Shown here: positions 17,452 to 58,090 of the stretch, piece by piece
Layout: the number at the start of each line of letters is the position of its first letter
Numbering within the stretch: the first letter of the stretch is position 1
NCBI RefSeq assembly: GCF_041320595.1
Contig: NZ_CP166625.1
Span: forward strand, 4,090,001 to 4,154,000
Length of the DNA: 64,000 nucleotides
Origin: Pleomorphomonas sp. PLEO
Lineage (GTDB): Bacteria; Pseudomonadota; Alphaproteobacteria; Rhizobiales; Pleomorphomonadaceae
Direction of reading: 5' to 3'
Position numbers and translations under genes: made by a program
The notes under the pieces: generated by a model
Told to the model about the DNA's origin: nothing
Seen by the model: only the letters and a program-made list of their open reading frames with translations
Database searches by the model: none

Positions 17452-18642
<1,191 letters not shown>

Positions 18643-24079: not shown

Positions 24080-24955
24080 TCAAGCGCGCTGCCAAGAGCT
24101 CGCAACCGTGGAGACGAGCGATTGCACCGGTGACAAGAGCAAGGGTCGATAGGCGATCGCCAACATCAGCGGCGCCGGACCGTCGACGAGCGGCCGCATT
24201 GTCAGGGTCGCCGGCATCAGACGTTCGGCATAATCGGGCATCAGCGAGAAACCGTCGGTGGCCATGATCAGCGAAAAGGTGGAAGCGATGTCTCCGGCGA
24301 CATGGGTCGGGGATAGGGCAAGACCACGTTGCTGACCCCAAGTATCGATCTCGCCGCGTAGAAATGGCGCAACGCGTTGGTTGACGGCAACATAGGTGTG
24401 CCCCACCAGATCCGAAAAGGTCAGCTCGGGTCGGAGCGCCAGTGGATGGCCGGCCTGAAGAAACACGCTGATGCGGTGGCGATCTATCGGCTCGAAATGC
24501 AAGTCGAGGTCAGTCACGGAAGGACGGGCAAAAGCGAGATCCAGATTGCCGTCCTTCAGATACTGGATGAGAGCCGTGGACGGGGCGCTGGTTACCTCGA
24601 TGTCGACCTCCCCGGCGATCTCGCGTGCGAGCCGCCGAAACTCGGGCAGCACGAAGGTCTCCAGCCCAGGAATAATACCGACGCGGATCGTCATCGGAGC
24701 GTTGCGCACAACGTCGATTGCGTCATCGAGCTGCTTCAGCACCTGCCGAACATGACCGAGAAACAGCCGGCCGGGCCGAGTAAGCACCACGCCCCTCACC
24801 CGCCGATCGAACAGCTCGACGCCCAATTCCCTTTCCAGATCCTTGAGTTGACGGCTGAGCGAGGGCTGAGCGGTGTGAAGACGCGTCCTGGCAGCACCGC
24901 TGACGCTGCCCTCGTCGGCCACCGCCACGAAATAGCGAAGGTGCCTCAGTTCCAT
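24080..24955 (-). CDS. LysR-family transcriptional regulator
   Basis: A 291-residue regulator with an N-terminal winged helix-turn-helix (MELRHLRYFVAVADEGSVSGAA) and a LysR substrate-binding domain from about residue 88. I prefer the start at 24955; an ATG 27 bases upstream adds an unusual extension. It is divergent from the oxidoreductase at 25107 with a 151-base shared gap, so that gene is the likely target. A LysR regulator (SalR) controls the methylthio-alkane reductase genes in Rhodospirillum rubrum, but nothing here shows this is its counterpart. Confidence 0.9.
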   Translation of the reverse strand: MELRHLRYFVAVADEGSVSGAARTRLHTAQPSLSRQLKDLERELGVELFDRRVRGVVLTRPGRLFLGHVRQVLKQLDDAIDVVRNAPMTIRVGIIPGLETFVLPEFRRLAREIAGEVDIEVTSAPSTALIQYLKDGNLDLAFARPSVTDLDLHFEPIDRHRISVFLQAGHPLALRPELTFSDLVGHTYVAVNQRVAPFLRGEIDTWGQQRGLALSPTHVAGDIASTFSLIMATDGFSLMPDYAERLMPATLTMRPLVDGPAPLMLAIAYRPLLLSPVQSLVSTVASSWQRA

Positions 24956-25106
24956 TGCGGATATACCTTTCAAGCATGGCAAACAGGCCTATCAAGTCTT
25001 TGTAGGGATAGCAAGGCTGGCTCTAGGGTGCGCTCAACCGCTCTCGCAAGGGAGCATGTCGAAGTCGCATTCAGCCGGAGGCGCGGTTTAAAGCCGCGAC
25101 AAGCCC

Positions 25107-27104
25107 ATGAAGCAGAACCACGAAATCCTGTTCGAGCCGATGAAGATCGGCAGTCTCGAAATCAAGAACCGGTACGTCATGGAGCCGATGGGTCCGGGCG
25201 GGCTGTGCGATGCCGACGGCACGTACAACTATCGCGGCGTCGAATATTACGTCGAGCGCGCCAAGGGCGGCGCAGGTCTGCTGATGACCGGCGTGACCAT
25301 GGTCGAAAACGACATCGAGCGTTGCGCTCTGCCATCGATGCCCTGCCCGACGCTGAACCCGCTCAACTTCGTCAAGACAGGCAAGATCTTGACCGAACGG
25401 GTGCACGCCTATGACGCGCGCATGTTCCTGCAGCTCTCCGCCGGTTTCGGCCGTGTGTCGATGCCGTCCATCGTCGGCAGGACGGCCGTCGCGCCGTCGC
25501 CGATCCCGCACCGCTGGATCGACGGCGTGACCTGCCGCGCCCTGACCATCGAGGAAATCAAAACCTACGTCAGCAAGTTCGCCGACAGCGCCGAGATCGC
25601 CCAGCGTGCCGGCTTTGACGGCATCGAGATCCACGCCGTCCACGAAGGCTACCTGCTCGACCAGTTCGCCATCTCCATGTTCAACCAGCGCACCGACGAA
25701 TACGGCGGCAGTCTGGAGAACCGCTTGCGCTTCGCCGTCGAGATCGTGCAAGCGATCAAGGAGCGTTGCGGCGACGCCTATCCGGTTTCCCTGCGCTACT
25801 CCATCAAGAGCTTCATCAAGGATTGGAAGAGCGGCGGCCTGCCGGGCGAAGAGTTCGTCGAGATGGGTCGCGACATTCCCGAGGGCATAGAGGCGGCCAA
25901 ACTGCTGGAAGCCGCCGGTTACGATGCGTTCAATGGCGACGTCGGCTCGTATGACAGCTGGTACTGGAGCCACCCGCCCATGTATCAGGCCAAGGGCCTC
26001 TACCTGCCCTACAACAGGATCCTGAAAGAGGTGCTGAAGGTGCCGGTGATCACCGCCGGCCGCATGGACAATCCCGACCTCGCGGCGGAGTCCATCATCT
26101 CCGGCCAGACCGATTTCGTCGGTCTCGCCCGTCCGCTGCTTGCCGATCCGCAACTGCCGAACAAGGTGCGGGCCGAGAAGATCGATCGCATTCGTCCCTG
26201 CCTCTCCTGTCAGGAAGGATGCATGGGCCGCCTCGCCAAGTACTCGCAGATCTCCTGCGCCGTGAACCCGGCCTGCGGTCGCGAAGCGGAGTATGGCCTG
26301 ACCGCCGCCCTTGAAAAGAAGTCGGTCATGATCGTCGGTGGCGGCGTTGCCGGCATGGAAGCGGCCCGCGTCGCCACGCTGCGCGGCCATGTCGTCACCC
26401 TCTATGAAAAGTCCGACCGTCTCGGTGGCGTCGTCATCCCCGGCGGCGTGCCCGACTTCAAGGACGATGATCACGCCCTGATCCACTGGTACGAGCGCGA
26501 GCTGCGCGAACTGAAGGTGCCGGTGATCTTCAACACGGAAGTGACCGAGGAGAGCATTCGGCTCGCCAAGCCCGACGTGCTGATCGTCGCTACCGGCTCC
26601 CAGCCGAAGATGCTGAAGATCGGCGACGCCCAGAACGTCTACACGGCCGAGGACGTGCTCAACGGCATCAAGCCGGCCGGCGATAGCACCATCATCATCG
26701 GCGCCGGCCTCGTCGGCTGCGAGACGGCGCTATGGCTGCATGATCAGGGCAAGAAGGTGACGATCGTCGAACTGGCGCCGAAGATCCTGGCGCTGGCAGG
26801 ACCACTCTGTCACGCCAACCACGACATGCTGCACGACCTCCTGATCTTCAAGAAGATCGACATCCTGACGTCGAGCTACGTGGCGGAGCCCGTCGCGGGT
26901 GGCTTCAAGGTGAAGAGCGGCGACAAGGAAACCTTCGTGCCGGCCGACAGCGCCATCGTCGCCATCGGTTATCGTTCGGAGCGCGGCCTCTACGAAAAGG
27001 TCCGTAATCTGGTACCGGAGGTCTACAGCTTTGGCGATGCCCGGCAGGTCTCCAACATCATGTATGCGATCTGGGATGCCTATGAGGTGGCCCGCTCGAT
27101 CTGA
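25107..27104 (+). CDS. NADH:flavin oxidoreductase with Fe-S cluster (dienoyl-CoA/enoate reductase type)
   Basis: A 665-residue member of the three-domain old-yellow-enzyme family that reduces activated C=C bonds. The FMN TIM barrel spans about residues 1-340. A 4Fe-4S motif follows (CLSCQEGC then CAVNP, about 370-395), then a FAD/NAD domain with VGGGVAGMEAA and IGAGLVGCETA. Length and order match dienoyl-CoA and enoate reductases. Its real substrate cannot be told from sequence. It is monocistronic, divergent from a LysR gene, and ends at a strong terminator. Confidence 0.88.
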   Translation: MKQNHEILFEPMKIGSLEIKNRYVMEPMGPGGLCDADGTYNYRGVEYYVERAKGGAGLLMTGVTMVENDIERCALPSMPCPTLNPLNFVKTGKILTERVHAYDARMFLQLSAGFGRVSMPSIVGRTAVAPSPIPHRWIDGVTCRALTIEEIKTYVSKFADSAEIAQRAGFDGIEIHAVHEGYLLDQFAISMFNQRTDEYGGSLENRLRFAVEIVQAIKERCGDAYPVSLRYSIKSFIKDWKSGGLPGEEFVEMGRDIPEGIEAAKLLEAAGYDAFNGDVGSYDSWYWSHPPMYQAKGLYLPYNRILKEVLKVPVITAGRMDNPDLAAESIISGQTDFVGLARPLLADPQLPNKVRAEKIDRIRPCLSCQEGCMGRLAKYSQISCAVNPACGREAEYGLTAALEKKSVMIVGGGVAGMEAARVATLRGHVVTLYEKSDRLGGVVIPGGVPDFKDDDHALIHWYERELRELKVPVIFNTEVTEESIRLAKPDVLIVATGSQPKMLKIGDAQNVYTAEDVLNGIKPAGDSTIIIGAGLVGCETALWLHDQGKKVTIVELAPKILALAGPLCHANHDMLHDLLIFKKIDILTSSYVAEPVAGGFKVKSGDKETFVPADSAIVAIGYRSERGLYEKVRNLVPEVYSFGDARQVSNIMYAIWDAYEVARSI

Positions 27105-27622: not shown

Positions 27623-29920
27623 TCAGTAGACGATCCGGTCCTCAATGGGCGGTTGGCGATCGATTGTCAGGTCCGGAAGCGGCCCAACCCACTTGCGAAT
27701 TTCAATCAGCGCGGTGTGGGCGATGTTGCCCTGCGCAAGGCCCGACGTCCCCTTGTCGATGGTCAGCGTATTCGGGTTGCCGTGCACATCGATCAGCTCG
27801 CCATCTATTTGCTGCGCATCGTACCAAGCTCCAGTCCCCATCCAGGCGACGTCCTCGCGGATTCCGTCATCGACAACAACACCGGCTAGCGCCTTGCCGC
27901 GATGACTGGACAGCAGCACGATATCGCCGCTGCCGATGCCCAGCCGTTGAGCGGTAGTCGGATGAAGATAGACCGGTTCGCGACCGTCGATCTTGGTCGC
28001 CCTGGCAACCGAACCGTTGTCGAGCTGGCCGTGCAAACGGCTGATCGACTGGCCGGAAACGAGGTGCAGGCGACCAACGCTGTCTTTCGCACCCAGCCAT
28101 TCCGTCGGCTCGATCCAGACCGGATGGCCGGGACAGTCGGCGAGGCCGAAGCCGGCGATGACCTCGCTGTGGAGCTGAATGCGACCGCTGGGCGTTGCGA
28201 GCGGGTTGCCATCGGGATCGGCGATAAAGTCGCCGAACTGAATGACCTCGCCCGTGGGATCGGGGCGATCGAAGCGCCCCATGGAACGGAAGGTATCGAA
28301 GTCCGGGAGGTCAACGCCGTGCTGGACGGCCACCTTGCTCGATTGCTCCCAGAGGTGTCGCAGCCAGCCGTCCTGGTCCCTGCCTTCGGTGAAGGTGTCG
28401 ACAACGCCAAAACGTTCGGCAAGCCCACGAAAGATGGCGTGATCGTCACGCGCCTCACCGAGGGGCTCCAGTACCTTGTCCATGAACACCAGCGAGCCGT
28501 CGCGACGGTTCAGCATGATATCCTCGCGCTCGAGCGGCGAGGTGGCTGGTAAGACGATGTCGGCGCGGCGGGCGGTCGGCGTCCACCAGATGTCGTTGAC
28601 GATGACTGTCTCCGGCCGCTTCCACGCCTCGGCAAGACGGTTGAGATCCTGATGGGCGTGGAAGGGATTGCCGCCGGTCCAATAGACGAGGCGGATGTCG
28701 GGATAGACGAGGGTTTTGCCATTATAGGTGCAACTGCCACCTGGATCGAGCAGCAGATCGGCGATTTTGGCCACTGGAATATAATCGGGCACGGCGTTGC
28801 GCCCCTGGGCGACCGACGGCCAGGGCAGCGACCGGATCGGACGCCCGACTGGCGTGGTAGAGCCGTAGCCGAAGCCGAAACCGCCACCCTTGGTTCCGAT
28901 CTGTCCCAGCATGGCAGCCAGCGCCAGCCCCATCCAGAGCGGCTGTTCGCCGTGATCGGCCCGCTGGATACCCCAGGCGAGCGAGATCATGGTCCGCTTC
29001 GCCGCCATCTCCCGGGCGAGATCGCGAATGCGGGCTTCGGCGACCCCGGTGATGGCGGACGCCCAGGCCGCCGTCTTGGCAATGCCGTCAGTCTCCCCCT
29101 TGATGTAGGCTTCCAACACCGGCCAGCCGTGGGTGTAGCGCTGAAGAAAGCTCCGGTCGGCCAGACCCTCTTCGATCAGAACGTGGGCGAGCCCCATCAT
29201 CAGGGCGGTATCGGTGTTGGGACGCGGCGCGATCCACTCGGCATCGAGAACACCCGGCACGTCGGCCCGGCGCGGCGAGATATTGACCACCCTCGCCCCG
29301 GCCCGATGAATACGAGCGAGCCAGCTCTCCACCTCGTGGCCGGTGGTGCCGCTCGACATCACCTGTGCCGTTCGGCCTGAAATACCACCGAAGCAAACCA
29401 AGAGCTCGGTATTGCCATCAAGCAGCGACCACGACGTCATGCAATCCTGGAAAAGGCCGTTGCTCATGCCGGTAACATGCGGCAGCAGAACCTCGCCCGC
29501 CGCATGGGAATAGGTGTCGACCGAGCGCGTGTAGCCACCGATGAGGTTCAGGAAACGCCTGAGCTGCGACTGGGCATGATGGAAGCGGCCAGCACTCGCC
29601 CAACCGTAGGAACCGCCGAAGATCGCCTTGTTGCCGTGGGTGTCGACAACGCGGCGAAGTTCATCCGCCGCGAGATCCAGCGCTTCGTCCCAGGGAAGCT
29701 CCACGAAGGGATCGTCGCCGGTGCGATCGCGGTCGCGTTTCTCCAGCCAGGCACGGCGCACCGAGGGACGGCGGATACGGGTGCCTTGATCTCGCACCGC
29801 GCTCAGCCAGCCGCGCCCGATCGTCGAGGGCTGCGGATCATCGGCGAGCGGGTTCAGACTGACGCCGTCCGCCTTGCCCTCGACGACATAGGTTCCCCAG
29901 TGGGCGGCTGTATAGCGCAT
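27623..29920 (-). CDS. BisC/DMSO-reductase-family molybdenum oxidoreductase, cytoplasmic
   Basis: A 765-residue bis-MGD molybdenum enzyme of the type III DMSO/TMAO/biotin-sulfoxide reductase group. It shows the GSYGWASAGRFHH segment (about 103-115) and TYSHAAGEVLLPH, where Ser138 aligns with the molybdenum-ligand serine. It lacks an N-terminal Fe-S cysteine set, a Tat signal and a membrane anchor, so it should work in the cytoplasm like BisC, reducing an S- or N-oxide. It is last in an operon, 18 bases after the RuBisCO-like gene. The neighbours suggest its substrate may be a sulfoxide of the compound handled by that protein; this is inference. Confidence 0.85.
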   Translation of the reverse strand: MRYTAAHWGTYVVEGKADGVSLNPLADDPQPSTIGRGWLSAVRDQGTRIRRPSVRRAWLEKRDRDRTGDDPFVELPWDEALDLAADELRRVVDTHGNKAIFGGSYGWASAGRFHHAQSQLRRFLNLIGGYTRSVDTYSHAAGEVLLPHVTGMSNGLFQDCMTSWSLLDGNTELLVCFGGISGRTAQVMSSGTTGHEVESWLARIHRAGARVVNISPRRADVPGVLDAEWIAPRPNTDTALMMGLAHVLIEEGLADRSFLQRYTHGWPVLEAYIKGETDGIAKTAAWASAITGVAEARIRDLAREMAAKRTMISLAWGIQRADHGEQPLWMGLALAAMLGQIGTKGGGFGFGYGSTTPVGRPIRSLPWPSVAQGRNAVPDYIPVAKIADLLLDPGGSCTYNGKTLVYPDIRLVYWTGGNPFHAHQDLNRLAEAWKRPETVIVNDIWWTPTARRADIVLPATSPLEREDIMLNRRDGSLVFMDKVLEPLGEARDDHAIFRGLAERFGVVDTFTEGRDQDGWLRHLWEQSSKVAVQHGVDLPDFDTFRSMGRFDRPDPTGEVIQFGDFIADPDGNPLATPSGRIQLHSEVIAGFGLADCPGHPVWIEPTEWLGAKDSVGRLHLVSGQSISRLHGQLDNGSVARATKIDGREPVYLHPTTAQRLGIGSGDIVLLSSHRGKALAGVVVDDGIREDVAWMGTGAWYDAQQIDGELIDVHGNPNTLTIDKGTSGLAQGNIAHTALIEIRKWVGPLPDLTIDRQPPIEDRIVY

Positions 29921-29938
29921 GTCCTTCGGTCCTCATCC

Positions 29939-31048
29939 TCATGTCAGGCGGGCACGCATGTCCTTCAGCGTTTCGCCGATGCGGTCGACATGCCGAAGCA
30001 GGCTACCGCCGAGGAGATATACGACATCATCGCCGTACATGGCACGCATCTCCGGCGCGCGGTCGGCGCTCATTCCACCACCGGGGCTTGGGAAGATCGG
30101 CCGGCCCACGCCATCGAGCGCGCGGCAGGCCTCGGCAATGGAAAGACACTCTTCGGCCGAGAAGCCGAAGCGGCCACCGACATTGGGGAAGATCGAAATA
30201 TCGGCGCCGGCAAGGCGCTGCAGCACGCCGAACATCATGGCATGGGTGAAGCCGAGCGTGTCGGACAATACATAGCTGCCAAGGAACGTCGGGTGCGCCA
30301 TAAGCGGCAGGTCGAACCAGTCGGCGGTGGCAAGGCGGCGGGTGAGATCGAAGCCGAACAGCCCCGGCATGACCAGCGCGCCCCCTGCCCCCGCCTCCTT
30401 GGCGAAGCGGGCGAAGTCCATCAGGTCTTCGCTGCGGCCGGCGATGTTGGGGAAATACAGGCTGTTGCCGTCGGTTTCCCGGTTTGCCCTGGCAACCGCG
30501 GCGGCGACTTTCTCGACGCGCGTCTTGAACGGCGCCGACGCCTGGTCAGTCAGGCCGTGATCGTCCTTGATGATATCGGCGCCGCCGAGCGCCGCCGCAT
30601 AGGCGATGGCGGCCAGCGTGTCGGCGTCGCTGCCCTGCGGCTTGATCACCGGGGCTATCAGACCGCCGGTCGGGCGCTTGGCCCGCGCGCGGACGCCTGA
30701 AATGCCGAAGCGGGCACCCTTGAAGTCCTGCGAAAGGCGCTCGCCCGGCTCGAAACCGACGACCCGAATGCCCTTCTGGATCGAGGAGTTGCCGAAGATG
30801 ACGTTGAGGAGCTGCGGCAGCTCGTTGCCGGTGCTGTCTGGGCTGTAGGTGAGATGAGCGAGATAGGAACCGGCGTCCTCGGCACGGACGCTCTCGACCT
30901 TGCCGAGGATGACATCCTCGATATAGCCCTTCGGCACCACGTCGCGCGGGATCTCGACGGTCTGTTCGAGAGCGATGCCGGCGGCCCGCTCGCTGGCTTC
31001 GTCGAGGCTGCCGGCGAAGATGCGATAGAAGACGGAAAAGCGCGACAT
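29939..31048 (-). CDS. RuBisCO-like protein (form IV type)
   Basis: A 369-residue RuBisCO superfamily protein, shorter than true carboxylases. Lys136 in APVIKPQGS and Lys161-Asp162-Asp163-His164 in GGADIIKDDHG align with the catalytic and carbamylated lysine regions, but the second acidic metal ligand is His. The loop-6 lysine is apparently Arg293 (GGRFGF), while His252 and the phosphate-binding GGGM and LLGGS are kept. Carboxylation of RuBP is therefore unlikely. Known relatives enolise or isomerise methylthio-sugar phosphates or decarboxylate 3-oxo-isoapionate 4-phosphate. It overlaps the transketolase gene start/stop and precedes the BisC gene, so it belongs to that operon. Confidence 0.88.
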   Translation of the reverse strand: MSRFSVFYRIFAGSLDEASERAAGIALEQTVEIPRDVVPKGYIEDVILGKVESVRAEDAGSYLAHLTYSPDSTGNELPQLLNVIFGNSSIQKGIRVVGFEPGERLSQDFKGARFGISGVRARAKRPTGGLIAPVIKPQGSDADTLAAIAYAAALGGADIIKDDHGLTDQASAPFKTRVEKVAAAVARANRETDGNSLYFPNIAGRSEDLMDFARFAKEAGAGGALVMPGLFGFDLTRRLATADWFDLPLMAHPTFLGSYVLSDTLGFTHAMMFGVLQRLAGADISIFPNVGGRFGFSAEECLSIAEACRALDGVGRPIFPSPGGGMSADRAPEMRAMYGDDVVYLLGGSLLRHVDRIGETLKDMRARLT

Positions 31049-32052
31049 CAGAGAGCCTCCGCCTTGGCTGACGAGTGGACGGCGTCGATGCGGACGGCAT
31101 CGAGGTCGGCATCGGTGATGCCGAAGCTCTGGCCGGTCAGCCGTTCGATGGCGGCGACCAGCGCCGGCGCATCGAGGCCATAGGTCCGCATCAGGTAGGG
31201 ACGCGAGCCGCCGTGGGCGTAGGTGTCCTTGAGGCCGAGCCGCACCAGGCGCTTGGCGATGCCGGCATCGGCGATGGTCTCGGCGACCAGCGATCCTATG
31301 CCGCCCTCGGTGACGTGGTTTTCTAGGGTAACCACGCCGTGGCGCACCGACTGCAGATGGTCGAGCAGATACTGCGCGTCGAACGGCTTGATGGTGTTGA
31401 GATGAATGTGGCGGATGGAAACGCCGGCCTTGGACAGTGCGCCGCGCGCCCGCAACGCCTCTTCGGTGGTGATGCCGGCGGTGATCACCAGCACATCGGT
31501 GCCGAGCGACAGTTCGCGCGGCTTGCCGACGACGATCGGCGTATCGAACAGACGCGGCACCGATCCCCTGAGCACACGGGCATAGACGGGGCCATCGACG
31601 CTGTCGGCCGCCTCGACGATCGACTCCACTTCCGTTGCGTCGCCGGTCTCCAGGATGGTCATGTTGGGGATCGAGCGCATCACCGAGATGTCCTCGATCG
31701 CCTGATGCGTCATGCCGCCCGGCGTGGTGACGCCCGGCAGGAAGCCCATCAGGCGCACCTTGCGGCGCGGATAGGCCACCGAGGCGATCAGCTGGTCATA
31801 GGGGCGGCGGTAGAGAAAGACGCCGAAGGTGTGCAGGAAGGGCCGGAAGCCGGCGAGACCCAGGCCGCCGGCAAAGCTCATCATGTTCTGCTCGGCCATG
31901 CCCAGCGACAGGAACTGCTCGGGGTGGCGATCGCGGAAGCCGTCGATCTCGCAGGACGACGTGAGATCAGCGGAGAGGCAGAGCACTTTCGGGTGGGCGA
32001 CGGCATAAGCCTCGAAGGCGCCGGCATAGGGACGGTTGACGAGTTCGACCAT
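31048..32052 (-). CDS. Transketolase-like protein, C-terminal (Pyr) subunit
   Basis: A 334-residue protein corresponding to the pyrimidine-binding and C-terminal domains of transketolase or DXS. The catalytic glutamate lies in LGMAEQNM (Glu54), followed by the usual FHTFG-like segment. With the upstream gene it forms a split ThDP enzyme that moves two-carbon ketol units. Split transketolases occur in branched-sugar (apulose phosphate) catabolism and in unassigned pathways. It is ten bases after the N-terminal subunit gene and touches the RuBisCO-like gene (stop/start overlap). Confidence 0.9.
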   Translation of the reverse strand: MVELVNRPYAGAFEAYAVAHPKVLCLSADLTSSCEIDGFRDRHPEQFLSLGMAEQNMMSFAGGLGLAGFRPFLHTFGVFLYRRPYDQLIASVAYPRRKVRLMGFLPGVTTPGGMTHQAIEDISVMRSIPNMTILETGDATEVESIVEAADSVDGPVYARVLRGSVPRLFDTPIVVGKPRELSLGTDVLVITAGITTEEALRARGALSKAGVSIRHIHLNTIKPFDAQYLLDHLQSVRHGVVTLENHVTEGGIGSLVAETIADAGIAKRLVRLGLKDTYAHGGSRPYLMRTYGLDAPALVAAIERLTGQSFGITDADLDAVRIDAVHSSAKAEAL

Positions 32053-32061
32053 GACGAGACC

Positions 32062-33021
32062 TCAGCGCACGTAGTCTACGGGGGCGACGCCGAGCTCGGC
32101 GGCGATGGCGGTATTGGTGGCGGCGCGGTCGGCCTCGTCCTTGAAGCGGACGTAGTGCAGACGCGGGAACCGGCGTTCGAGATAGTTCATGTCCTTGAAG
32201 GGACTGGTCTTTGCCAGAATGATCAGCGGCTGGCCGGGATGCGGCGTCTTGGCCGCCCAGCGCAGCGCGCCGAGATCATGGCCGTCGACCTCCGCCACAA
32301 CGGCGCCGAAGGCCTCGAACTTGGCCCTGATGTCGCGCACGTCCATTACGCTGGACATGGCGCCGTCGCATTGCTGCTGGTTGACATCGACGATGGCGTT
32401 GAGCGTGTCGATGCCGTGATAGGCCGCCGCCTGTACCGCCTCCCAGGTCTGCCCTTCCTCAACCTCACCGTCCGACATGAACACCCAGACGCGGCCGGTC
32501 TCGCCCTTGCGGCGACGGCCCCAGGCAAGGCCGGCCGCCGTCGACAGACCGACGCCGAGGGTGCCGTTGTGCACCTCCATGCCAGGGGAATGCTCGGCGC
32601 CGATCATCTCGACCGACGAACCGTCGCGGTTGAACTGTCCGAGGGCTTCCGGTGCGAGGCGCCCCACTTCGATCAGGGTGGCATAGGCGACGAGCGCGTA
32701 ATGCGCCGGCGCGAAGATCAGCCGGTCGAACCCCGGCAGAGCAGGGCCGTTGTAGCCGGCGCCGGTGTGATAGTCGGTGTTGGTGGCGGAAGGCACGCCG
32801 CCGAACGGCTCGGGCACCGGCGGCAGCGTCGGCTCGCCGATATGGAGTTCCTCGTTGTAGAGCCAGGCCAGTTGCTCGGCCGCCGAACAGGCCTGGCTCA
32901 GGTAGCCGCCGTTGTTGCGGATGGTGTGTTCGAACACGCGCCGCCTGATGCCGAGCGCGATCTCCTCGGTGGTTCTTGAGTTGGGCGTGCTGGGTTTGGA
33001 CGAGCGAGGCTGCCGTGCCAT
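32062..33021 (-). CDS. Transketolase-like protein, N-terminal (PP) subunit
   Basis: A 319-residue thiamine-diphosphate-binding half of a split transketolase. The metal/ThDP motif is SDGEVEEGQ ending at VDVNQ, close to the GDG...NN family pattern but with S and Q at the ends. I choose the start MARQPRSS because GGAGAAACCG sits just before it; an upstream ATG lacks a good site. It is followed after 40 bases by the C-terminal subunit gene. The substrate is unknown. Confidence 0.88.
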   Translation of the reverse strand: MARQPRSSKPSTPNSRTTEEIALGIRRRVFEHTIRNNGGYLSQACSAAEQLAWLYNEELHIGEPTLPPVPEPFGGVPSATNTDYHTGAGYNGPALPGFDRLIFAPAHYALVAYATLIEVGRLAPEALGQFNRDGSSVEMIGAEHSPGMEVHNGTLGVGLSTAAGLAWGRRRKGETGRVWVFMSDGEVEEGQTWEAVQAAAYHGIDTLNAIVDVNQQQCDGAMSSVMDVRDIRAKFEAFGAVVAEVDGHDLGALRWAAKTPHPGQPLIILAKTSPFKDMNYLERRFPRLHYVRFKDEADRAATNTAIAAELGVAPVDYVR

Positions 33022-33060
33022 CGGTTTCTCCGGATAAGTGGCATGAAAGAACGTCACGAA

Positions 33061-33089
33061 GCCGGCCTCGGCTGAGTGCCGAAGCCGGC
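33061..33089 (-). terminator. Hairpin between binding-protein and transketolase genes
   Basis: GCCGGCTTCGGC and GCCGAGGCCGGC form a long stem with one mismatch and a five-base loop, without a T run. Such hairpins after a binding-protein gene commonly keep the binding-protein mRNA more abundant than downstream enzymes; that role is inferred. Confidence 0.5.
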
Positions 33090-33118
33090 TCGCTTAAGGA
33101 GGCGCGAGGAGAGCCCGC

Positions 33119-34171
33119 TTACTTGCTGGCGACCGGAATCCACGGCGAAAGAGCGACATCGCTCTCGTTGAACGACGGCACCTTGGCGGCCAGTTCCTCG
33201 ATGGTGGTCACGCCGGCGGCACGCAGGTCGGCCTGGGTCAGCAGGGTCGGCTTGATGACGAGGCTGTGGTCGACGGGTTCGCCGGCCACGAGCTTGGCAG
33301 CGGCGCGGATGGCAGCGGCGCCGACCAGAGCCGGATTGGTGGCGACCGTTGCAACCCACGGGCTGCCATCGGCGACGATTTCCTGGATGTCGGCCGTGGA
33401 GACGTCGGCCGAGTAGATCTTCAGCTTGCTGGCCGTCCCGTTTTCCGTCGCGGCGAGTTTCACGCCACGGGCGAACTCGTCATAGGGGGCGAAGACCACG
33501 GAGATATCCGGGTTGGCGCGCAACACGGCCTTGGCCTGATCGGAGGTGGAGAGCGCCGTCGTCGCATTGACCACGCCGAACTGCGCTTTCTCGACGACGC
33601 CGGCATTGGCCTTCTTGAAGTCCTGCCAGACCTCATTGCGGCGGTCGAGCGGCGCAAAGCCGGCGACATAGGCATAGCCGGCGTTGAAGCTGGTGCCGTT
33701 GTCCTTCACAGCCTGCTCGAGGGCGAGGCGGGCGAGTTCATGATCGCTCTGCTCGACCTGCGGCACGGCCGGGTTGTCGATGTTGACGTCGAAGGCGACC
33801 ACCTTGATGCCGGCGTCGAGCGCCTTCTGCACCACGTCGCGCAGCGCTTCCGGCTCGCCGTGGTCGATGACGATGGCCTTGACGCCCAGATTGATCGCCT
33901 GCTCGATCTGCAGGCGCTGCTCGGCGCTGTCCTGACGGCCGGGGAACACCTGCAGGTCGACGCCGATGGCCGCCGACTGGGCCTTGGCACCAGCCTGCAC
34001 AGCCGCGAAGAAATCGCCGGCCGAGATGAAGCCGACCAGAGCGAACTTGACGCCGCCCTTATCAAACGGTGCGGGGGCGCCGGTCAGGCCGGCGGCCAGG
34101 GAGGCGCCGGCGAGCAGGACAGATGCCAGAACAGTGGCCGTCGATGCGGCCGTCCTCGTGATGAAACTCAT
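33119..34171 (-). CDS. Periplasmic sugar-type ABC substrate-binding protein
   Basis: A 350-residue type I periplasmic binding protein of the RbsB/LacI fold. It has a Sec signal (about 1-27, cleavage after SLAA), ALVGFISAGDFFAAV at the first strand and AIVIDHGEP plus VAFDVNIDN further on. Such proteins bind pentoses, hexoses or nucleosides. No permease or ATPase follows; instead the split transketolase and RuBisCO-like genes do. Either the membrane parts are encoded elsewhere or they are shared. The ligand is probably the precursor used by this operon. Confidence 0.88.
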   Translation of the reverse strand: MSFITRTAASTATVLASVLLAGASLAAGLTGAPAPFDKGGVKFALVGFISAGDFFAAVQAGAKAQSAAIGVDLQVFPGRQDSAEQRLQIEQAINLGVKAIVIDHGEPEALRDVVQKALDAGIKVVAFDVNIDNPAVPQVEQSDHELARLALEQAVKDNGTSFNAGYAYVAGFAPLDRRNEVWQDFKKANAGVVEKAQFGVVNATTALSTSDQAKAVLRANPDISVVFAPYDEFARGVKLAATENGTASKLKIYSADVSTADIQEIVADGSPWVATVATNPALVGAAAIRAAAKLVAGEPVDHSLVIKPTLLTQADLRAAGVTTIEELAAKVPSFNESDVALSPWIPVASK

Positions 34172-34658
34172 GAGATTTCCCCGATGCGGCCATGTGGCCG
34201 GGTGTCGATACCGACGGCGCTGCCTTGTCCGCCAAATGGCGTTCTGCGAGCCGTGCCTAAGGATATTTATCTATCGACAAACTAGTCAAAGAACGTCCGC
34301 CGCCGTATTCTCCTGGAGCGGTGATGTTTGGTTCGCTTGCCGGCGTCGGCGGAGAAAACTGTTCCTGTTCGTCGAAAATTGCCGCGTCATCACCAACGTG
34401 AATGCGCGGCAGCCTTGGTCGCCTCGAAACGCCCTTTGCCATCGCGGAGACACCGCTGGCCCCGTGATCAAAGGCAGCAACAATCGGGCGTCAAACCGAA
34501 GTCGCCTCGGCAAGGTTCGGAAACTGTTGTCGTTTTAGCGACAATGGAGGGTAAGATATTTCCTGTTGCGATCAGGATTTGAACGGGTCAACGTCGGCGG
34601 CGGCAGGGCAAGGCTGCATCATGGATCCCATTCCAACGGCCACGGAGTGACCGCCTTG
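34172..34658. promoter_or_regulatory. Divergent control region between two transport operons
   Basis: About 490 bases with no supported gene, holding the promoters of the sugar-type and amino-acid-type binding protein genes. At 34261-34275 the sequence GGATATTTATCTATC shares nine bases (TTTATCTAT) with the box at 62541-62560 and, read in reverse, CGATAGAT with the marD box. It is therefore a weak member of the TTTAGTA box family. Confidence 0.4.
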
Positions 34659-35474
34659 ATGACGCCCCGCCTGCTCGTCCTGTTTGCCGCCCTTACCCTG
34701 CCCACCGTCGCCTTCGCCGGAGAAACGCTCGACCGTGTCCACGCCAAGGGTGAAGTCGTCGACGTCCTCGTTAATGACTATCCGCCCTTCGGCTTCATCA
34801 ATGACAAGAATGAACTCGACGGCTTCGATGTCGACGTGGCCCGAGCCTTTGCCGAAAAGCTTGGTGTCAAACTGAAGCTGGAAACGCCGGGATGGGAAAC
34901 CATCATCGGTGGCAAGTGGGCCGGTCGCTGGGACTTGGCCATTTCCTCGGCAACACCGACTGAGGAGCGCGCCAAGGTCGTGAACTTCCCGGTGATCTAC
35001 TACAGCCTGCCGGCCGTGTTGGTCGTCAACAAGGACGAGACGACCATCCAATCGGCCAAGGACATCACCGGCAAGAAGGTCGGTGCCGGTACAGGTTCAT
35101 CCTACGAAGCTTACTTGAACCGCAATTTCGTCATCCCCGGCCAGCCGGCCATCGAATTCCCCTTTGGCAATGTCGAAGTCGTGCCTGGAGATGAAACGGT
35201 CAACTTCCAGAATTTGGCCTTGGGAGCCGGTGTGCGGCTCGATGCCATCGTCGCCTCCGCCGGCACAGCCCAGGGACAGATCGACGCGACCGGCAAGCTG
35301 AAAGTGGTCGGCAAGCCCTTGTTCGCCGAGCCGAATGCCGTGGTCACCGACAAGGGCGATCCCGAGTGGGACGCCGAGGTCGCCCGTGTCATCAAGGAGC
35401 TGAAGGCCGACGGCACGATCGCCCGCATTTCCCAGAAGTGGTTCCATACGGACATCACCAAAGATGCCGAGTGA
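34659..35474 (+). CDS. Amino-acid-type ABC substrate-binding protein
   Basis: A 271-residue type II binding protein of the polar amino acid family. It has a signal peptide (cleavage after VAFA), YPPFGFINDKNELDGFDVDV near the mature N terminus, and the conserved aspartates and arginine of that fold. The start at MTPRLL is chosen for its GGAG site; the longer in-frame extension is unlikely. It overlaps the permease gene by 11 bases. With the homocysteine methyltransferase at 36335, S-methylmethionine is a reasonable candidate ligand, by analogy with mmuPM. Confidence 0.85.
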   Translation: MTPRLLVLFAALTLPTVAFAGETLDRVHAKGEVVDVLVNDYPPFGFINDKNELDGFDVDVARAFAEKLGVKLKLETPGWETIIGGKWAGRWDLAISSATPTEERAKVVNFPVIYYSLPAVLVVNKDETTIQSAKDITGKKVGAGTGSSYEAYLNRNFVIPGQPAIEFPFGNVEVVPGDETVNFQNLALGAGVRLDAIVASAGTAQGQIDATGKLKVVGKPLFAEPNAVVTDKGDPEWDAEVARVIKELKADGTIARISQKWFHTDITKDAE

Positions 35475-36306
35475 CATCACTCAATCCGGAGTTCCCATCG
35501 TTGCGCGGCCGGTGAACACCCACCGGCTGCGTTTCGATTTCACGCTGCGGGTCTGGCTGACCTGGGCGCTGCTGCTCATCGCCCTCATCGGCGGGCTGCA
35601 GCATCTCGGCCTCGACTTCGCGCTGATCCGTGCCAAGCTGCCCTTCATGCTCGGCCTTCATCTGTCGCCCAATGGCTTCGTCCAGGGTGTAGTTCTGACT
35701 ATTCTGGTGACAGCGATGTCGATGGTGTTCGCTGTCGGTCTTGCCGTGTTGACGGCGCTCGGCCGGCTTTCGCGCAACCCGGTCGCCTTTGCCATCGCCA
35801 CCTTCTACGCATCCTTCTTTCGCGGCACGCCGCTGCTGGTGCAAGTGCTGCTGATCTACCTCGCCCTGCCGCAGTTCGGCATCATCCTGTCGGCGCTGAC
35901 CTCGGGCATCATGGCCCTGTCACTCAATTACGCCGCCTATCTGGCCGAGACGATCCGTGCCGGGATTACGGCGGTCCCGCGCGGACAGCGCGAGGCGGCG
36001 ATGGCCCTTGGCTTGTCGCCGTTGCTGATCGCCGTCAAGATCGTCGCTCCGCAGGCGGCGCGCGTCATCATTCCGCCGGCCGGAGCCCAGTTCGTCTCGA
36101 TGCTGAAGGATTCGTCGCTGGTATCGCTGATGGGACTGTGGGAACTCAACTTTCTCGCCCAGTCCTACGGTCGTTCGACCTATCACTACATGGAAATGCT
36201 GCTGACGGCCGCCTTCATCTACTGGGGACTGTCCATCCTGTTCGAGATCGTCCAACATCGTCTGGAAGTGCGCTTCGGCCGCGCCTACGGCGCCACCCGT
36301 GGATGA
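35464..36306 (+). CDS. Amino acid ABC transporter permease
   Basis: A 280-residue inner-membrane permease of the HisMQ family. Several transmembrane helices are evident, with the FRGTPLLVQ segment and the EAA loop (GQREAAMALGLSPLLIAVKI). It is translationally coupled to the binding protein. No ATP-binding subunit follows, and no second permease is present, so it probably forms a homodimer and borrows an ATPase encoded elsewhere. Confidence 0.9.
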   Translation: MPSDITQSGVPIVARPVNTHRLRFDFTLRVWLTWALLLIALIGGLQHLGLDFALIRAKLPFMLGLHLSPNGFVQGVVLTILVTAMSMVFAVGLAVLTALGRLSRNPVAFAIATFYASFFRGTPLLVQVLLIYLALPQFGIILSALTSGIMALSLNYAAYLAETIRAGITAVPRGQREAAMALGLSPLLIAVKIVAPQAARVIIPPAGAQFVSMLKDSSLVSLMGLWELNFLAQSYGRSTYHYMEMLLTAAFIYWGLSILFEIVQHRLEVRFGRAYGATRG

Positions 36307-36334
36307 AGCCCATGGCACAAGAAAAGAGAATCCT

Positions 36335-37255
36335 ATGACTGCCAAAGCTCCTGTCACCATCCTTGACGGCGGCATGGGCCGCCTGCTTGAGCGGCTGGGC
36401 GCCCCGTTCCGCCTGCCCGAATGGTCGGCCCTGTCGCTGATCGAGGCCCCCGATTACGTGCGCCGCGCCCATCAGGCCTATGTCGATGCCGGCGCTGAAA
36501 TCATTACCACCAATTCCTATGGTCTGGTGCCGCACATGATCGGCGAGGAGCGCTTCTGGAAAGAAGGGCGCGCGCTGGCCGACCGCGCCGGTTCGATCGC
36601 CCGCACTGTCGCCGATGCCGCGCCGCGCAAGGTGATCGTCGCCGGTTCGCTGCCACCGATCTTCGAAAGCTACCGGCCGAACAAGTTCATCGAGGAGCAG
36701 GCGCCGCCGATTCTCGCTGAACTGGTGGCTGGGCTGGCGCCGCATGTCGACGTCTGGCTGGTCGAGACACAGAGCTCCACGGCCGAGGCGCTGACCGCCT
36801 TCGCGGCGGCGAAGGCGACCGGCAAGCCGATCTATATCTCCTATACGCTGCGCGACGAGCGCGGCCGCACCGGCCCCGCCGAATTGCGGTCGTGGGAGCC
36901 CGTCGGGGAAGCGGTTTTGCGAACGCTCGCCGCCGGAGCCTCGGCCATCCTGTTCAACTGCAGCCAGCCCGAGGTGATGAGCGCCGCGCTGAAGGCGGCC
37001 CGCCTCGCCATCGAATCTTTTGGCAAACCGGGCATCGGCCTAGGCGTCTACGCCAACGCCTTCGTGCCGGAGCCGCCCTCGGACGAGCCCTATGCCGGCA
37101 TTTCCGAGCTCAGGCCCGATCTCGACCCGCCGAACTATCTCAAGTGGATCGATCGCTGGATCGACGATGGCGCCACCATCGTCGGCGGCTGCTGCGGCAT
37201 CGGGCCGGAGCATATCGAGGCCATTGCCCAGAGCCGATCAAAAGAGGCGGCCTGA
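36335..37255 (+). CDS. Homocysteine S-methyltransferase (MmuM-like)
   Basis: This enzyme moves a methyl group from S-methylmethionine or S-adenosylmethionine to homocysteine, giving methionine, with a zinc thiolate centre. The 306-residue protein starts MTAKAPVTILDGGMG. It shows the three zinc cysteines as FNCSQPE and the VGGCCGIGPEHI motif near the C terminus. The upstream in-frame start at 36299 overlaps the permease; the later ATG gives the family N terminus. It ends the amino acid transport operon, which links that transporter to a methyl-sulfonium compound. Confidence 0.9.
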   Translation: MTAKAPVTILDGGMGRLLERLGAPFRLPEWSALSLIEAPDYVRRAHQAYVDAGAEIITTNSYGLVPHMIGEERFWKEGRALADRAGSIARTVADAAPRKVIVAGSLPPIFESYRPNKFIEEQAPPILAELVAGLAPHVDVWLVETQSSTAEALTAFAAAKATGKPIYISYTLRDERGRTGPAELRSWEPVGEAVLRTLAAGASAILFNCSQPEVMSAALKAARLAIESFGKPGIGLGVYANAFVPEPPSDEPYAGISELRPDLDPPNYLKWIDRWIDDGATIVGGCCGIGPEHIEAIAQSRSKEAA

Positions 37256-43708: not shown

Positions 43709-44006
43709 CCGTCTCCCCATCGCGCTCACCGGCAGCGGCTTGTTTGCCGGCCTTTCGACCACCGGCTGGTGGTGGATCGTCTATAGCCGCCAGATCGATG
43801 CCGGCAGCCTGCCGATCGCCAACGCCCTGCCCTGCCTCGCCCGCAAGACCGACATCTGCTCGCTGGCCGAGGCCCTGTGCGCCCAGACGCACTTGCTCGG
43901 CATCACTCGCTATGCGCCGGCCGCCTTCTGGCTGTCCGCCGCCCTGCTCGCGGTTGGCCTGCTTCTGCTCGGCCGCCACTCCCTGTCCCAGGAGACTCGT
44001 TCATGA
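43701..44006 (+). CDS. Small two-helix membrane protein of unknown function
   Basis: A 101-residue protein with one hydrophobic segment near residues 8-28 (ending TTGWWWIVYS) and another near 75-95. Between them is a loop carrying three cysteines (CLARKTDICSLAEALC). The loop probably faces the periplasm and could form a disulfide. The gene overlaps the ATPase upstream and metY downstream (ATGA), so it is tightly built into the transport-sulfhydrylase operon. I recognise no family. Confidence 0.75.
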   Translation: MSSRLPIALTGSGLFAGLSTTGWWWIVYSRQIDAGSLPIANALPCLARKTDICSLAEALCAQTHLLGITRYAPAAFWLSAALLAVGLLLLGRHSLSQETRS

Positions 44007-45313
44007 ACGCTCCCACCCCGATCAAACCGCCGCTGGCCATCGATACGCTGGTACTGCATGGCGGCAGCTTCCGCATCGATCCGGCGACGTCGGCCGTGGC
44101 GGTACCGATCTACCAGACGACGTCCTTTGCCTTTGAAAGCACCGCAAAAGCAAAACGGATCTCCGCCTTCGAGGAAGTCGCCTACACTTACTCTCGCGTC
44201 GCCAACCCGACCGTCGATGCGTTCGAACAGCGCCTCGCCGAGCTCGACGGCGGCGTGGCGGCGCTGGGTGTCGCCTCCGGACAGGCGGCCACAGCCGTCG
44301 CCGTGCTGTCGCTGGTCAAGGCCGGCGACAATATCGTCGCCTCGCGAGGGCTTTACGGTGGAACGGTCAACTTCTTCCGCGAACGCCTGAAGCAGTTCGG
44401 CGTCGAGGCGCGCTTCGTCGACAGCGACGACCCGGAGAATTTCCGCCGGGCGACCGATGACCGCACGCGCCTGTATTTCGGCGAGACGCTGCCCAATCCC
44501 CGGCTGACCGTCTTCCCGATCCGCGAGGTGGCCGACATCGGCCGGCCACTCGGCATTCCGCTCATCATCGACAACACGGCCTCGCCACTGGCCGCCCGGC
44601 CGCTCGATCACGGCGCAGCCATCGTCGTCTACTCGGCGACCAAATACATTGGCGGCCATGGCACGACCATCGGCGGCGCCATCGTCGATGGCGGCTTCCC
44701 CTGGGCCGACTTCCCGGACCGGCAGCCGCTGATCAACAGCCCCGATCCGGCCTATGACAACCGCTCCTATGTCGATCTCGCCAACGCACTCGGTGGTCCC
44801 ATCGCCTTCATCGTCCGCGCCCGCGCCGCTATCGTTCGCGATCTCGGGCCGTCGCTGTCGCCGCAGAATGCCTTCCAACTGATCCAGGGGTTGGAAACGC
44901 TGCCACTGCGCCTCGAACGGCATTTCAGCAATGCCGTCAAGGTGGCCGAGTTCCTGTCCAAGCACCCCAAGATCGAACGTACCGTCTATCCCGGTCTTCA
45001 GACCGGCGAGGATCGCCGACGCGCCGACACCTATCTGAAGGGCGGCTATGGCGCGCTGATCGGCTTCGAGCCGAAGGGCGGCGAGGATGCGGCTCTGGCC
45101 TTCATCGACCGGCTGAAACTGATCTATCACCTTGCCAACATCGGCGACGCCCGCACGCTGGCCATCCATCCGTACTCGACCACGCACGGCCAGTTGTCGC
45201 CCGAGGAAAAGCTGGCGGCCGGCGTGACGCCGTCCTTCGTCCGGCTCTCCATCGGCATCGAGAACCCCGCCGACATCATCGCCGACATCGATCAGGCGCT
45301 CTCGGGAATTTAA
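44003..45313 (+). CDS. metY: O-acetylhomoserine sulfhydrylase
   Basis: A 436-residue PLP enzyme of the Cys/Met metabolism family. It condenses O-acetylhomoserine with sulfide or methanethiol to homocysteine or methionine. It shows VPIYQTTSFAFE near the N terminus, the PLP lysine in SATKYIGGHGT and the C-terminal FVRLSIGIE. Length and the HPYSTTHGQLSPEE segment favour MetY over cystathionine gamma-synthase. The ATG overlaps the previous stop. Here it is the natural acceptor of methanethiol released by the mar system. Related cystathionine lyases cannot be fully excluded. Confidence 0.88.
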   Translation: MNAPTPIKPPLAIDTLVLHGGSFRIDPATSAVAVPIYQTTSFAFESTAKAKRISAFEEVAYTYSRVANPTVDAFEQRLAELDGGVAALGVASGQAATAVAVLSLVKAGDNIVASRGLYGGTVNFFRERLKQFGVEARFVDSDDPENFRRATDDRTRLYFGETLPNPRLTVFPIREVADIGRPLGIPLIIDNTASPLAARPLDHGAAIVVYSATKYIGGHGTTIGGAIVDGGFPWADFPDRQPLINSPDPAYDNRSYVDLANALGGPIAFIVRARAAIVRDLGPSLSPQNAFQLIQGLETLPLRLERHFSNAVKVAEFLSKHPKIERTVYPGLQTGEDRRRADTYLKGGYGALIGFEPKGGEDAALAFIDRLKLIYHLANIGDARTLAIHPYSTTHGQLSPEEKLAAGVTPSFVRLSIGIENPADIIADIDQALSGI

Positions 45314-57052: not shown

Positions 57053-57922
57053 TTAGGCCACAGCCCGCGCCCGCTCTGCCCGCTCCATCTGGACGATGTG
57101 CTCGGCCCAGCGCGCCGACCAATCACGCAGCTCGGACTGGCTGAGAGGCGTCGGCACCTTGGAATGCTCGTGGCCGGCGATGTGGCGGGCGAGCGCGCGG
57201 TAGACGTCGGCCTGTTCGGACTGGGGGGCCGCTTCGATGGTGGTCTTGCCGGACAGCTCGGCCTGGGTGACGGTGAGCGAGCGCGGCACGAACTGAACGA
57301 TGGGCGTCGAGGTCTTCGCTGCGAAATCCTCGATTATGTCGCGCTGGAAGTCGGTGTTGATCGAGTTGGCGATGATGCCGCCGAGCAGCGCACCGCCCGA
57401 ACTCGAGAACTTTTCGATGCCACGGAACAGGTTGTTGGCGGCGTAGATGGCCATGAAGTCGGCCGACGACACGGTGAACACGTGTTCGGCGATGCCCTCG
57501 CGCACCGGCACGGCGAAGCCGCCGCAGACCACGTCGCCGAGCACGTCGTAGATGACGAAATCGAGGTCGAGGTCTTCGAAGACGCGCTGCTGCTTTAGGA
57601 GTTCGACAGCGGTGATGATGCCGCGACCGGCGCAGCCGACGCCGGGCGCCGGGCCGCCGGCCTCGACGCAATAGATGCCGCCGAACCCCTTGAACACGGC
57701 CTCGCGGGCATCGACGCGGCGCTTCTCGGCCAGGAGATCGAGCACCGAGGGGATGTACTCGCCGCCGCGCAGCGTCGTCGTGGAGTCGGCCTTCGGGTCG
57801 CAGCCGAACTGCATCACCTTGTAGCCGGCCTCGACGAGCGCGGCGGAAATGTTGGAGGTGGTGGTCGACTTGCCGATGCCGCCCTTGCCGTAGATGGCGA
57901 TCTGCTTGGGTTTGCGGGACAT
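57053..57922 (-). CDS. marH: Nitrogenase-reductase-like protein MarH
   Basis: A 289-residue NifH-family iron protein that should donate electrons to MarDK with ATP hydrolysis. Walker A is GKGGIGKST (12-20). Cys97 (GVGCAGRG) and Cys133 (DVVCGGFA) are the 4Fe-4S ligands of the dimer, and Arg100 is the site ADP-ribosylated in NifH. It is last in the marD-K-X-B-H string, 168 bases after marB, with a good ribosome site (CAAGGAG). Context with NifB-like and separate D/K genes, and a methionine-salvage neighbourhood, favours methylthio-alkane reductase over nitrogenase or chlorophyllide reductases. Confidence 0.87.
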   Translation of the reverse strand: MSRKPKQIAIYGKGGIGKSTTTSNISAALVEAGYKVMQFGCDPKADSTTTLRGGEYIPSVLDLLAEKRRVDAREAVFKGFGGIYCVEAGGPAPGVGCAGRGIITAVELLKQQRVFEDLDLDFVIYDVLGDVVCGGFAVPVREGIAEHVFTVSSADFMAIYAANNLFRGIEKFSSSGGALLGGIIANSINTDFQRDIIEDFAAKTSTPIVQFVPRSLTVTQAELSGKTTIEAAPQSEQADVYRALARHIAGHEHSKVPTPLSQSELRDWSARWAEHIVQMERAERARAVA

Positions 57923-58090
57923 AAATGACTCCTTGAGGGGGTGATGAGGGGAGCTGCTCTCAAATTCGCTGGGGCGCGTCAGATGGCGATGGTTCCGAGA
58001 ACCGGAGCGGAGCGGGCTTAAGGCCCGTGAGCACCGGAAGCGGAGGAAGCGAAGCCAGATGACCGTCCCAGTAGAATTTCAGGGCAGCTC

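Follow-up and report, generated by a model that had tools for sequence, protein, structure and literature searches.

An operon joining a RuBisCO-like protein to a split transketolase in Pleomorphomonas: the probable downstream half of a 5-methylthioribose pathway

Background

In the methylthioadenosine (MTA)-isoprenoid shunt, represented by Rhodospirillum rubrum and by RLP1 of Rhodopseudomonas palustris, a RuBisCO-like protein (RLP) acts downstream of MtnA. The R. rubrum protein makes 1-methylthioxylulose-5-phosphate, according to excerpts of two reports (PMC6302742; PMC5893883), the former of which also mentions an RLP (OiaX) in the apiose/apionate pathway. In the dihydroxyacetone phosphate (DHAP) shunt of Escherichia coli and R. 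rubrum, MtnK or MtnP and MtnA are followed by Ald2, which gives DHAP and 2-(methylthio)acetaldehyde, while universal methionine salvage proceeds through MtnB, MtnC or MtnW, and MtnD. This paper concerns an operon of Pleomorphomonas sp. PLEO in which an RLP gene is joined to both halves of a split transketolase, a periplasmic binding protein and a BisC-type reductase. The operon lies within a stretch of 64,000 nucleotides, called the window throughout (bases 4090001–4154000 of a 5.48 Mb single-contig genome, NZ_CP166625.1), and probably encodes the downstream half of a catabolic pathway for 5-methylthioribose (MTR), a sulfur-containing sugar that remains after methionine has been used.

The proposed pathway shares with the MTA-isoprenoid shunt an upstream MtnA, RLPs that belong to one larger group and agree, single exceptions apart, at the catalytic columns, and the same predicted RLP product, 1-methylthioxylulose-5-phosphate. 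It differs in that no cupin methylsulfurylase was found here, a split transketolase being present instead, and in that MTR import and MtnK accompany most loci of this RLP clade. Shared with the DHAP shunt are MtnK, MtnA and an MtnR-like regulator, and a class II aldolase-type gene is present in the same genome; however, RLP and transketolase together would cleave C2–C3 of the 5-phosphate to glyceraldehyde-3-phosphate, rather than give the products of Ald2. Universal methionine salvage is distinguished by MtnD, which was not found in this genome. No description of an RLP, methylthioribose and a transketolase together was found among the matches listed in the open-licence PMC literature, to which the search was confined.

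Results and discussion

Gene content of the operon

Five open reading frames (ORFs), all on the minus strand, make up the whole content of the operon (Table 1): a substrate-binding protein (SBP), the N-terminal and C-terminal halves of a transketolase (TKn and TKc), the RLP and BisC; there is no class II aldolase among them. The initial annotation had proposed a five-gene minus-strand operon of these families, and this was borne out by the ORF coordinates and by matches to family profiles. The spacings it gave also stood for the 18 bases between RLP and BisC, the overlap of TKc and RLP (1 base) and the presence of a hairpin spacer, but the gap between TKn and TKc is 9 bases rather than 10. Translation of TKn probably begins at the ATG at 33021 and not at the GTG at 33057, because GGAG stands just upstream of the former; with this start, it follows that the spacer between SBP and TKn is 97 nt long. 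Folding of the spacer (33022–33118) produced a 12-bp hairpin with z = -4.06, and none of 200 shuffled sequences was equally stable; it is possible that the hairpin acts as a processing or partial-termination element.

Table 1. Positions, in the window, of the operon genes, the spacer hairpin and one context gene
Feature	Position	Strand	Basis
Periplasmic sugar-type (CUT2-like) binding protein (SBP), 350 amino acids (aa), predicted 5-methylthioribose binding	33119..34171	-	PF13407; 4RY8 by sequence and predicted structure
12-bp hairpin in the 97-nt SBP-TKn spacer	33061..33089	-	Sequence and fold of 33022-33118
Split transketolase N half (TKn), binding thiamine diphosphate (ThDP)	32062..33021 (ATG); GTG start at 33057 in ORF list	-	PF00456; 6YAK
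Split transketolase C half (TKc), pyrimidine-binding and C-terminal domains	31048..32052	-	PF02779, PF02780; 6YAJ; active-site comparison
RuBisCO-like protein (RLP), 369 aa, predicted 5-methylthioribulose-1-phosphate isomerase	29939..31048	-	PF00016; 3QFW; tree; catalytic columns
BisC/dimethyl sulfoxide (DMSO)-reductase-type molybdopterin S/N-oxide reductase, 765 aa	27623..29920	-	TIGR00509; DMSO reductases in PDB
O-acetylhomoserine sulfhydrylase, context gene outside the operon	43877..45313	+	TIGR01326, 524.4 bits (cut-off 495.1)

Conservation of the gene set

An alignment of 15 RLPs was used to scan the named genomes, and the best 80 of 224 relatives were kept; these are not a random sample. 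Neighbouring genes were sought within about 10 kb of each RLP gene, at E 1e-15 and with half of the query covered. Since 22 of the 80 loci were shorter than 21 kb, ending at contig ends, the presence counts are lower bounds. TKc was found in 76 loci (76–98% identity) and TKn in 75 (69–91% identity), both halves standing beside the RLP gene in 75 of the 80. MtnA was present in 65 loci, the MTR kinase MtnK in 60 and an MTR-type SBP in 60 (49–57% identity), together with an ATP-binding cassette (ABC) ATPase in 65 and a permease in 63 (60 each at an identity of at least 40%), and a DeoR/SorC-type regulator in 61. A fused aldolase/short-chain dehydrogenase was observed in 30. The gene set is spread across many Alphaproteobacteria, Hoeflea, Maritalea, Tabrizicola, Rhodobacter and Paracoccus among others.

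The association between TKn and RLP was also apparent at the level of whole genomes. Among 120 relatives, TKn matches of at least 67% identity occurred in 12 genomes, which were exactly the 12 that contained the RLP clade (E 1e-100 or better); the other TKn matches listed did not exceed 44% identity, except for a second fragment in G012. In G088, which is among these genomes, about 20 kb separate the transketolase pair from the RLP gene. MTR kinase was present in 11 of the 12 (all but G088), compared with 20 of the other 108. When 385 genomes from across the class were considered, TKn (E 1e-60) was identified in three (G000, G398 and G539), each with an RLP gene about 1 kb away and TKc in between; 14 further genomes had RLPs at 36–40% identity, without such a TKn. 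Unlike other split transketolases, the TKn clade of the operon never occurred apart from this RLP clade in either genome sample. Chance assembly of the gene set was ruled out by this co-occurrence and by the frequency with which both transketolase halves adjoin the RLP gene.

Some loci contain genes that may bear on the source of the sugar. A member of the purine-nucleoside-phosphorylase family was found in 7 of the 80 loci (one at L073:7066–8013); MtnA was present in all seven while MtnK was missing in five, which fits phosphorolysis of a methylthio-nucleoside giving the same sugar-1-phosphate. In five loci the phosphorylase gene stood beside a gene that resembles an amidohydrolase or deaminase by eye. 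Together, these genes suggest methylthio-nucleosides as a further source. A member of the RbsD/FucU-type mutarotase family was observed in 12 of the 80 loci (e.g., L063:7498–7953); in L173 this gene stands between those for SBP and TKn.

A transketolase apparently in place of a cupin

For comparison, 23 loci of the nearest RLPs from outside the clade were assembled, 14 from the 385-genome sample and nine others. A cupin like Rru_A2000 (PDB 3JZV), which is taken here to be the 1-methylthioxylulose-5-phosphate methylsulfurylase, adjoined the RLP gene in 20 of the 23; the exceptions were L186 (at a contig end), L200 and L048. At E 1e-5, the same query identified a cupin in none of the 80 loci belonging to the clade. 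A search of the window genome at E 0.001, which had no positive control of its own, found no cupin either. Through this near mutual exclusion, the transketolase therefore seems to take the place of the cupin and to use the RLP product, 1-methylthioxylulose-5-phosphate, which is an analogue of xylulose-5-phosphate. L048 (G007:C2:156001–176000), from a congeneric genome, presents a third RLP context, with neither cupin nor transketolase; a different RLP (39%) is found there beside MTR-kinase-like, glycerol-1-phosphate-dehydrogenase-like, PfkB-type kinase and SsuA/SsuC-type genes.

The RLP of the window matched PF00016 (RuBisCO_large) with 59.8 bits, against a cut-off of 30.1, and its nearest PDB relative by sequence was 3QFW, an R. 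palustris RLP by title. When the predicted single-chain structure was compared, two MtnW entries and 3QFW were tied (2ZVI, Z 40.8; 2OEM, 40.6; 3QFW, 40.5). A tree of 50 rows placed the RLP clade and the cupin-linked RLPs in one group, apart from the six other RLPs sampled (100/100), although monophyly of the transketolase-linked set was not settled by it. The columns presumed to be catalytic (N87, K136, K161, D163, H164, H252, R293, G347 and G348 in the window RLP) were nearly invariant across 82 clade sequences, which include four loci with no transketolase in range, and 20 cupin-linked sequences, there being only single exceptions. Thirteen alignment columns differed by group, two of them inside a loop missing from the cupin group. 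The simplest reading of these comparisons, by analogy with the R. rubrum protein, is that both groups would make 1-methylthioxylulose-5-phosphate, which would go on to a cupin in one group and to a transketolase in the other.

Active site of the split transketolase

TKn matched PF00456 (Transketolase_N) with 59.8 bits (cut-off 22), while TKc matched PF02779 with 87.6 bits (cut-off 27) and PF02780 with 72.7 bits (cut-off 25.9). The best PDB relatives were the two chains of the Carboxydothermus split transketolase, 6YAK for TKn and 6YAJ for TKc. Like that enzyme and others in the same order, the operon transketolase is a two-gene ThDP enzyme with a conserved ThDP motif; it differs in clade-specific changes at the contacts for the donor C1-OH and the acceptor hydroxyl. 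These were identified by comparing the pocket with that of E. coli TktA in the sequences left after filtering by length, 59 for the N half and 65 for the C half, alongside 18 and 16 halves, respectively, of other split transketolases.

The ThDP positions D155, E160, N185 and E411 (E. coli numbering, as hereafter) were kept throughout, in all 59 TKn and all 65 TKc sequences. S385 and R520, which are presumably phosphate contacts, were retained in all 65 TKc sequences; in the others, S385 was replaced by Tyr in 13 of 16, and R520 was kept in 16 of 16. The column of H100 was Ile in 59 of 59 TKn sequences (Ser 14, His 3 and Ile 1 of the 18 others); since an earlier alignment of 19 pairs puts H100 on the neighbouring Met, the exact partner is uncertain, with His at neither position. 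The column of D469 was Gly in 65 of 65 TKc sequences (Tyr 13, Glu 2 and Gly 1 of the 16 others), and that of H26 was Tyr in 58 of 59 TKn sequences and also in 15 of 18 others. If H26 and H100 are assumed to contact the donor C1-OH in the E. coli enzyme, and D469 the acceptor hydroxyl, then this canonical set is not present in the TKn/TKc clade, as it is not in most other split transketolases. The R358 position was left out, its alignment being ambiguous. A pocket of this kind, as read from the alignments, with the phosphate end kept and the C1-OH and acceptor contacts lost, would suit a 1-methylthio donor, and is consistent with that substrate without being proof of it.

Predicted binding and activation of methylthioribose

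SBP matched PF13407 (Peripla_BP_4) with 127.5 bits, against a cut-off of 35.1. Its closest PDB entry by sequence was 4RY8 (2.9e-64), that is, Tlet_1677, whose entry title is 5-methylthioribose transporter binding protein. The same entry ranked first against the predicted structure of SBP (single chain, mean pLDDT 88), with Z 40.6 over 314 aligned residues, followed by an uncharacterised Yersinia sugar-binding protein (Z 36.9); the best entry titled as a ribose transporter or binder reached Z 31.6. Tlet_1677 is thus the top match by both approaches, but shares 38% identity with SBP, for which MTR is the likely ligand as predicted from sequence and model. An MtnA gene of P. carboxyditropha (G003) adjoins one whose product shares 93% identity with SBP (L170).

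The initial annotation had placed the missing kinase and transporter genes elsewhere, and these were indeed found at another site of the same genome. The one match in the genome to the MtnA-type family PF01008 lies in locus L052 (within G000:C1:228501–248500), where MtnA (TIGR00512, 397.2 bits, cut-off 279) is accompanied by MTR kinase (TIGR01767, 505 bits, cut-off 275), an ABC ATPase and a permease. A further binding protein, which shares 51% identity with SBP, and a DeoR/SorC-type regulator are encoded there too. This regulator shares 41% identity with E. coli YjhU, which was shown in 2025 to be MtnR and to repress the DHAP shunt for MTR and 5-deoxyribose, according to excerpts of the report (PMC12632272). 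The locus also contains a fuculose-phosphate-aldolase-type gene, which matched fuculose-phosphate aldolase models below cut-off; with MtnK, MtnA and this putative class II aldolase, the DHAP shunt set is present there. No match to acireductone dioxygenase, MtnD (PF03079), was found in the window genome; as a control, this profile matched in 5 of 14 genomes, in 2 of them over the cut-off.

The molybdopterin oxide reductase

BisC scored 866 bits with TIGR00509, below the cut-off of 1017.55, and so is best described as BisC/DMSO-reductase family-like; its nearest PDB entries were DMSO reductases (1EU1). Residue 5 of the query aligned to residue 53 of the 823-aa chains, and the N-terminal leader region found in the periplasmic DMSO reductase precursor is absent. 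BisC resembles S/N-oxide reductases of the BisC/DorA family in its full-length match, but differs in its score and in its MTR gene context.

The initial annotation had BisC reducing the S-oxide of the imported sugar, and this part held less well. BisC was observed in only 5 of the 80 RLP loci, so that 75 relatives have the RLP genes without it, which goes some way towards the refutation that the initial annotation had itself foreseen; nevertheless, it recurs beside transketolase or MtnA in more than one lineage. It follows the RLP gene in the window and in three congeneric loci (82–84% identity). In L087 and in G088 (L169) the gene is divergent from TKn, and in L073 it comes 19 bases downstream of the MtnA gene. 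Of 14 genomes of the genus, four had the RLP clade, TKn and this BisC together, and the other ten had none of the three. Scoring of the best eight candidates per genome gave at least 44 matches to BisC (E 1e-150), spread over 28 of the 120 genomes, so that its repeated neighbourhood with transketolase and MtnA looks unlikely to have arisen by chance. It looks like an accessory of the pathway, and the S-oxide of MTR or MTA can be named, tentatively, as its substrate.

Proposed pathway and alternatives

The enzymatic steps, and their direction, are inferred to be as follows. MTR would be caught by SBP and enter through an MTR-type ABC transporter encoded elsewhere, whereupon MtnK would convert it to MTR-1-phosphate and MtnA would convert this to 5-methylthioribulose-1-phosphate. 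The RLP would shift the carbonyl to give 1-methylthioxylulose-5-phosphate, like its relative in the MTA-isoprenoid shunt. The split transketolase would then take this compound as ketol donor, freeing glyceraldehyde-3-phosphate and leaving a methylthio-two-carbon unit on ThDP, a step that would stand in place of the cupin step. BisC, as an accessory, could plausibly reduce an S-oxide form of the methylthio compound. This scheme retains the core of the initial annotation, namely import of a methylthio-pentose, enolisation or isomerisation by the RLP and two-carbon chemistry by the transketolase, which is well supported by the MTR-type SBP, by the MtnK, MtnA and ABC genes at L052 and by the clustering of MtnK, MtnA and ABC genes with RLP in 60, 65 and 60–65 of the 80 loci; its S-oxide part was not established.

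The two-carbon unit might be released as 2-(methylthio)acetaldehyde or be transferred to an aldehyde, or it might lose methanethiol and so become an acetyl unit. The last of these would make the transketolase a new ThDP enzyme that breaks C–S bonds: after release of glyceraldehyde-3-phosphate, the enamine would expel methanethiol from the beta carbon, giving acetyl-ThDP and then acetyl-phosphate or acetate. Phosphoketolase, which expels water, and sulfoacetaldehyde acetyltransferase, which expels sulfite, provide analogies. This chemistry is possible though somewhat doubtful; if true, no oxygen, glutathione or nitrogenase-like enzyme would be needed to cut MTR to methanethiol, an acetyl unit and glyceraldehyde-3-phosphate.

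Several observations weigh against MTR breakdown by RLP and transketolase as set out here. The cupin-linked RLPs attach inside the clade, beside L017 and on a long branch, and a short loop of the clade that is missing in cupin-linked RLPs may mean that the stereochemistry of the product differs. TKc was not in range in 4 of the 80 loci, which were L062 (at a contig edge) and L069–L071 (with long flanks), the search covering those loci and not the rest of their genomes; these four have neither transketolase half, and L132 lacks TKn at a contig end. MtnK and the MTR-type SBP were each not in range in 20 of the 80, and unsupervised clustering of the 80 loci (45 largest clusters) revealed no obvious gene for the two-carbon unit that was conserved with the cluster. 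In BisC-bearing lineages (L169, L053, L054 and L033), the cluster also includes AraD/FucA-type genes and genes for an FGGY (xylulokinase-like) kinase and a zinc alcohol dehydrogenase; some clusters have, in addition, a PfkB-type kinase and a sugar-binding protein of another type. The simple scheme leaves these additions unexplained, and they hint at a second entry route or substrate. When the PfkB and the second-type SBP of the P. carboxyditropha cluster were compared with the window genome, the best relatives there were distant (32% and 36%, respectively). Finally, with the aldolase-type gene of L052, the DHAP shunt may serve MTR in the window genome, and the RLP/transketolase branch may then have another substrate.

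That the same chemistry acts in reality on 5-deoxyribose, derived from 5'-deoxyadenosine, is unlikely. The RLP would in that case produce 1-deoxyxylulose-5-phosphate, which the transketolase would split into glyceraldehyde-3-phosphate and a two-carbon unit. MTR enzymes often also accept 5-deoxyribose, a further point against a role confined to MTR, and the regulator at L052 is MtnR-like; indeed, MtnK, MtnA and Ald2 of the E. coli DHAP shunt take both sugars, as excerpts of PMC12632272 state. However, the top match of SBP is titled as an MTR transporter binding protein, the surrounding sulfur island contains O-acetylhomoserine sulfhydrylase and other methyl-sulfur genes, and a sulfur-free sugar would presumably leave BisC without a role. 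Another sugar or sugar acid, e.g., apiose or apionate, which the initial annotation had entertained, is a very improbable substrate, even though apiose/apionate pathways also include genes for split transketolases and an RLP (OiaX), and an AraD-type gene accompanies FGGY and PfkB kinases in the clusters of some relatives. The OiaX model gave 46.3 bits with the RLP, against a cut-off of 700, and an OiaX/apionate function was rejected on this score; moreover, MtnK and MtnA are present in 60 and 65 of the 80 loci, the tree groups the RLP with cupin-linked RLPs and apart from the six others, and the RLP-linked transketolase differs from other split transketolases at several pocket positions. The highest NCBIfam scores of the RLP were to models of MtnW, the 2,3-diketo-5-methylthiopentyl-1-phosphate enolase of classical oxygen-dependent methionine salvage, and MtnW structures were tied with 3QFW, but at 183.5 and 149.5 bits these scores fall far under the cut-offs (409 and 513.6). 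Given also that no acireductone dioxygenase was found, and that the position of the lysine taken to be the enolase base is Asn in 82 of 82 clade sequences, an MtnW function was rejected and is scarcely credible.

Other genes in the window

A nitrogenase-like operon at 57053–62349 encodes NifH, NifB-like, NifK-like and NifD-like proteins, and the best solved relative of its alpha subunit was 9FMG (592 bits), which is a methylthio-alkane reductase according to an excerpt of PMC12552129. The O-acetylhomoserine sulfhydrylase of Table 1 is a likely sink for methanethiol; with both this gene and the methylthio-alkane-reductase-like operon in the island, methanethiol or 2-(methylthio)ethanol could be used. 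Divergent from the RLP operon, at 34566–37255, are genes for a cystine-type binding protein, a permease and a homocysteine S-methyltransferase-type protein, and this trio also follows BisC in L034/L059 and L035/L060. Also next to the operon, at 24080–27104, a LysR-type regulator is divergent from a flavoenzyme like BaiCD or bilirubin reductase; a relative at 29–30% was found near only two RLP loci, L101 and L191. Two genes of equal length (396 aa; 8–1198 and 17452–18642), which share their first 30 residues and appear by eye to be EF-Tu copies, flank a block of ribosomal and RNA-polymerase genes.

Conclusion

The proposed handing of an RLP product to a two-part transketolase appears to be a new route by which sulfur and carbon are recycled, and a variant of methionine salvage. 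If true, methionine salvage in bacteria would have one more branch, with an RLP supplying the substrate of a transketolase, and this would account for the gene set seen across many Alphaproteobacteria. It would show how an unrelated enzyme can take over a given step of a pathway, and would also offer a direct test of what the RLPs of this clade do. Bacteria with the gene set could then live on MTR released by other organisms, and would represent an additional biological source of methanethiol or methylthio-aldehydes.

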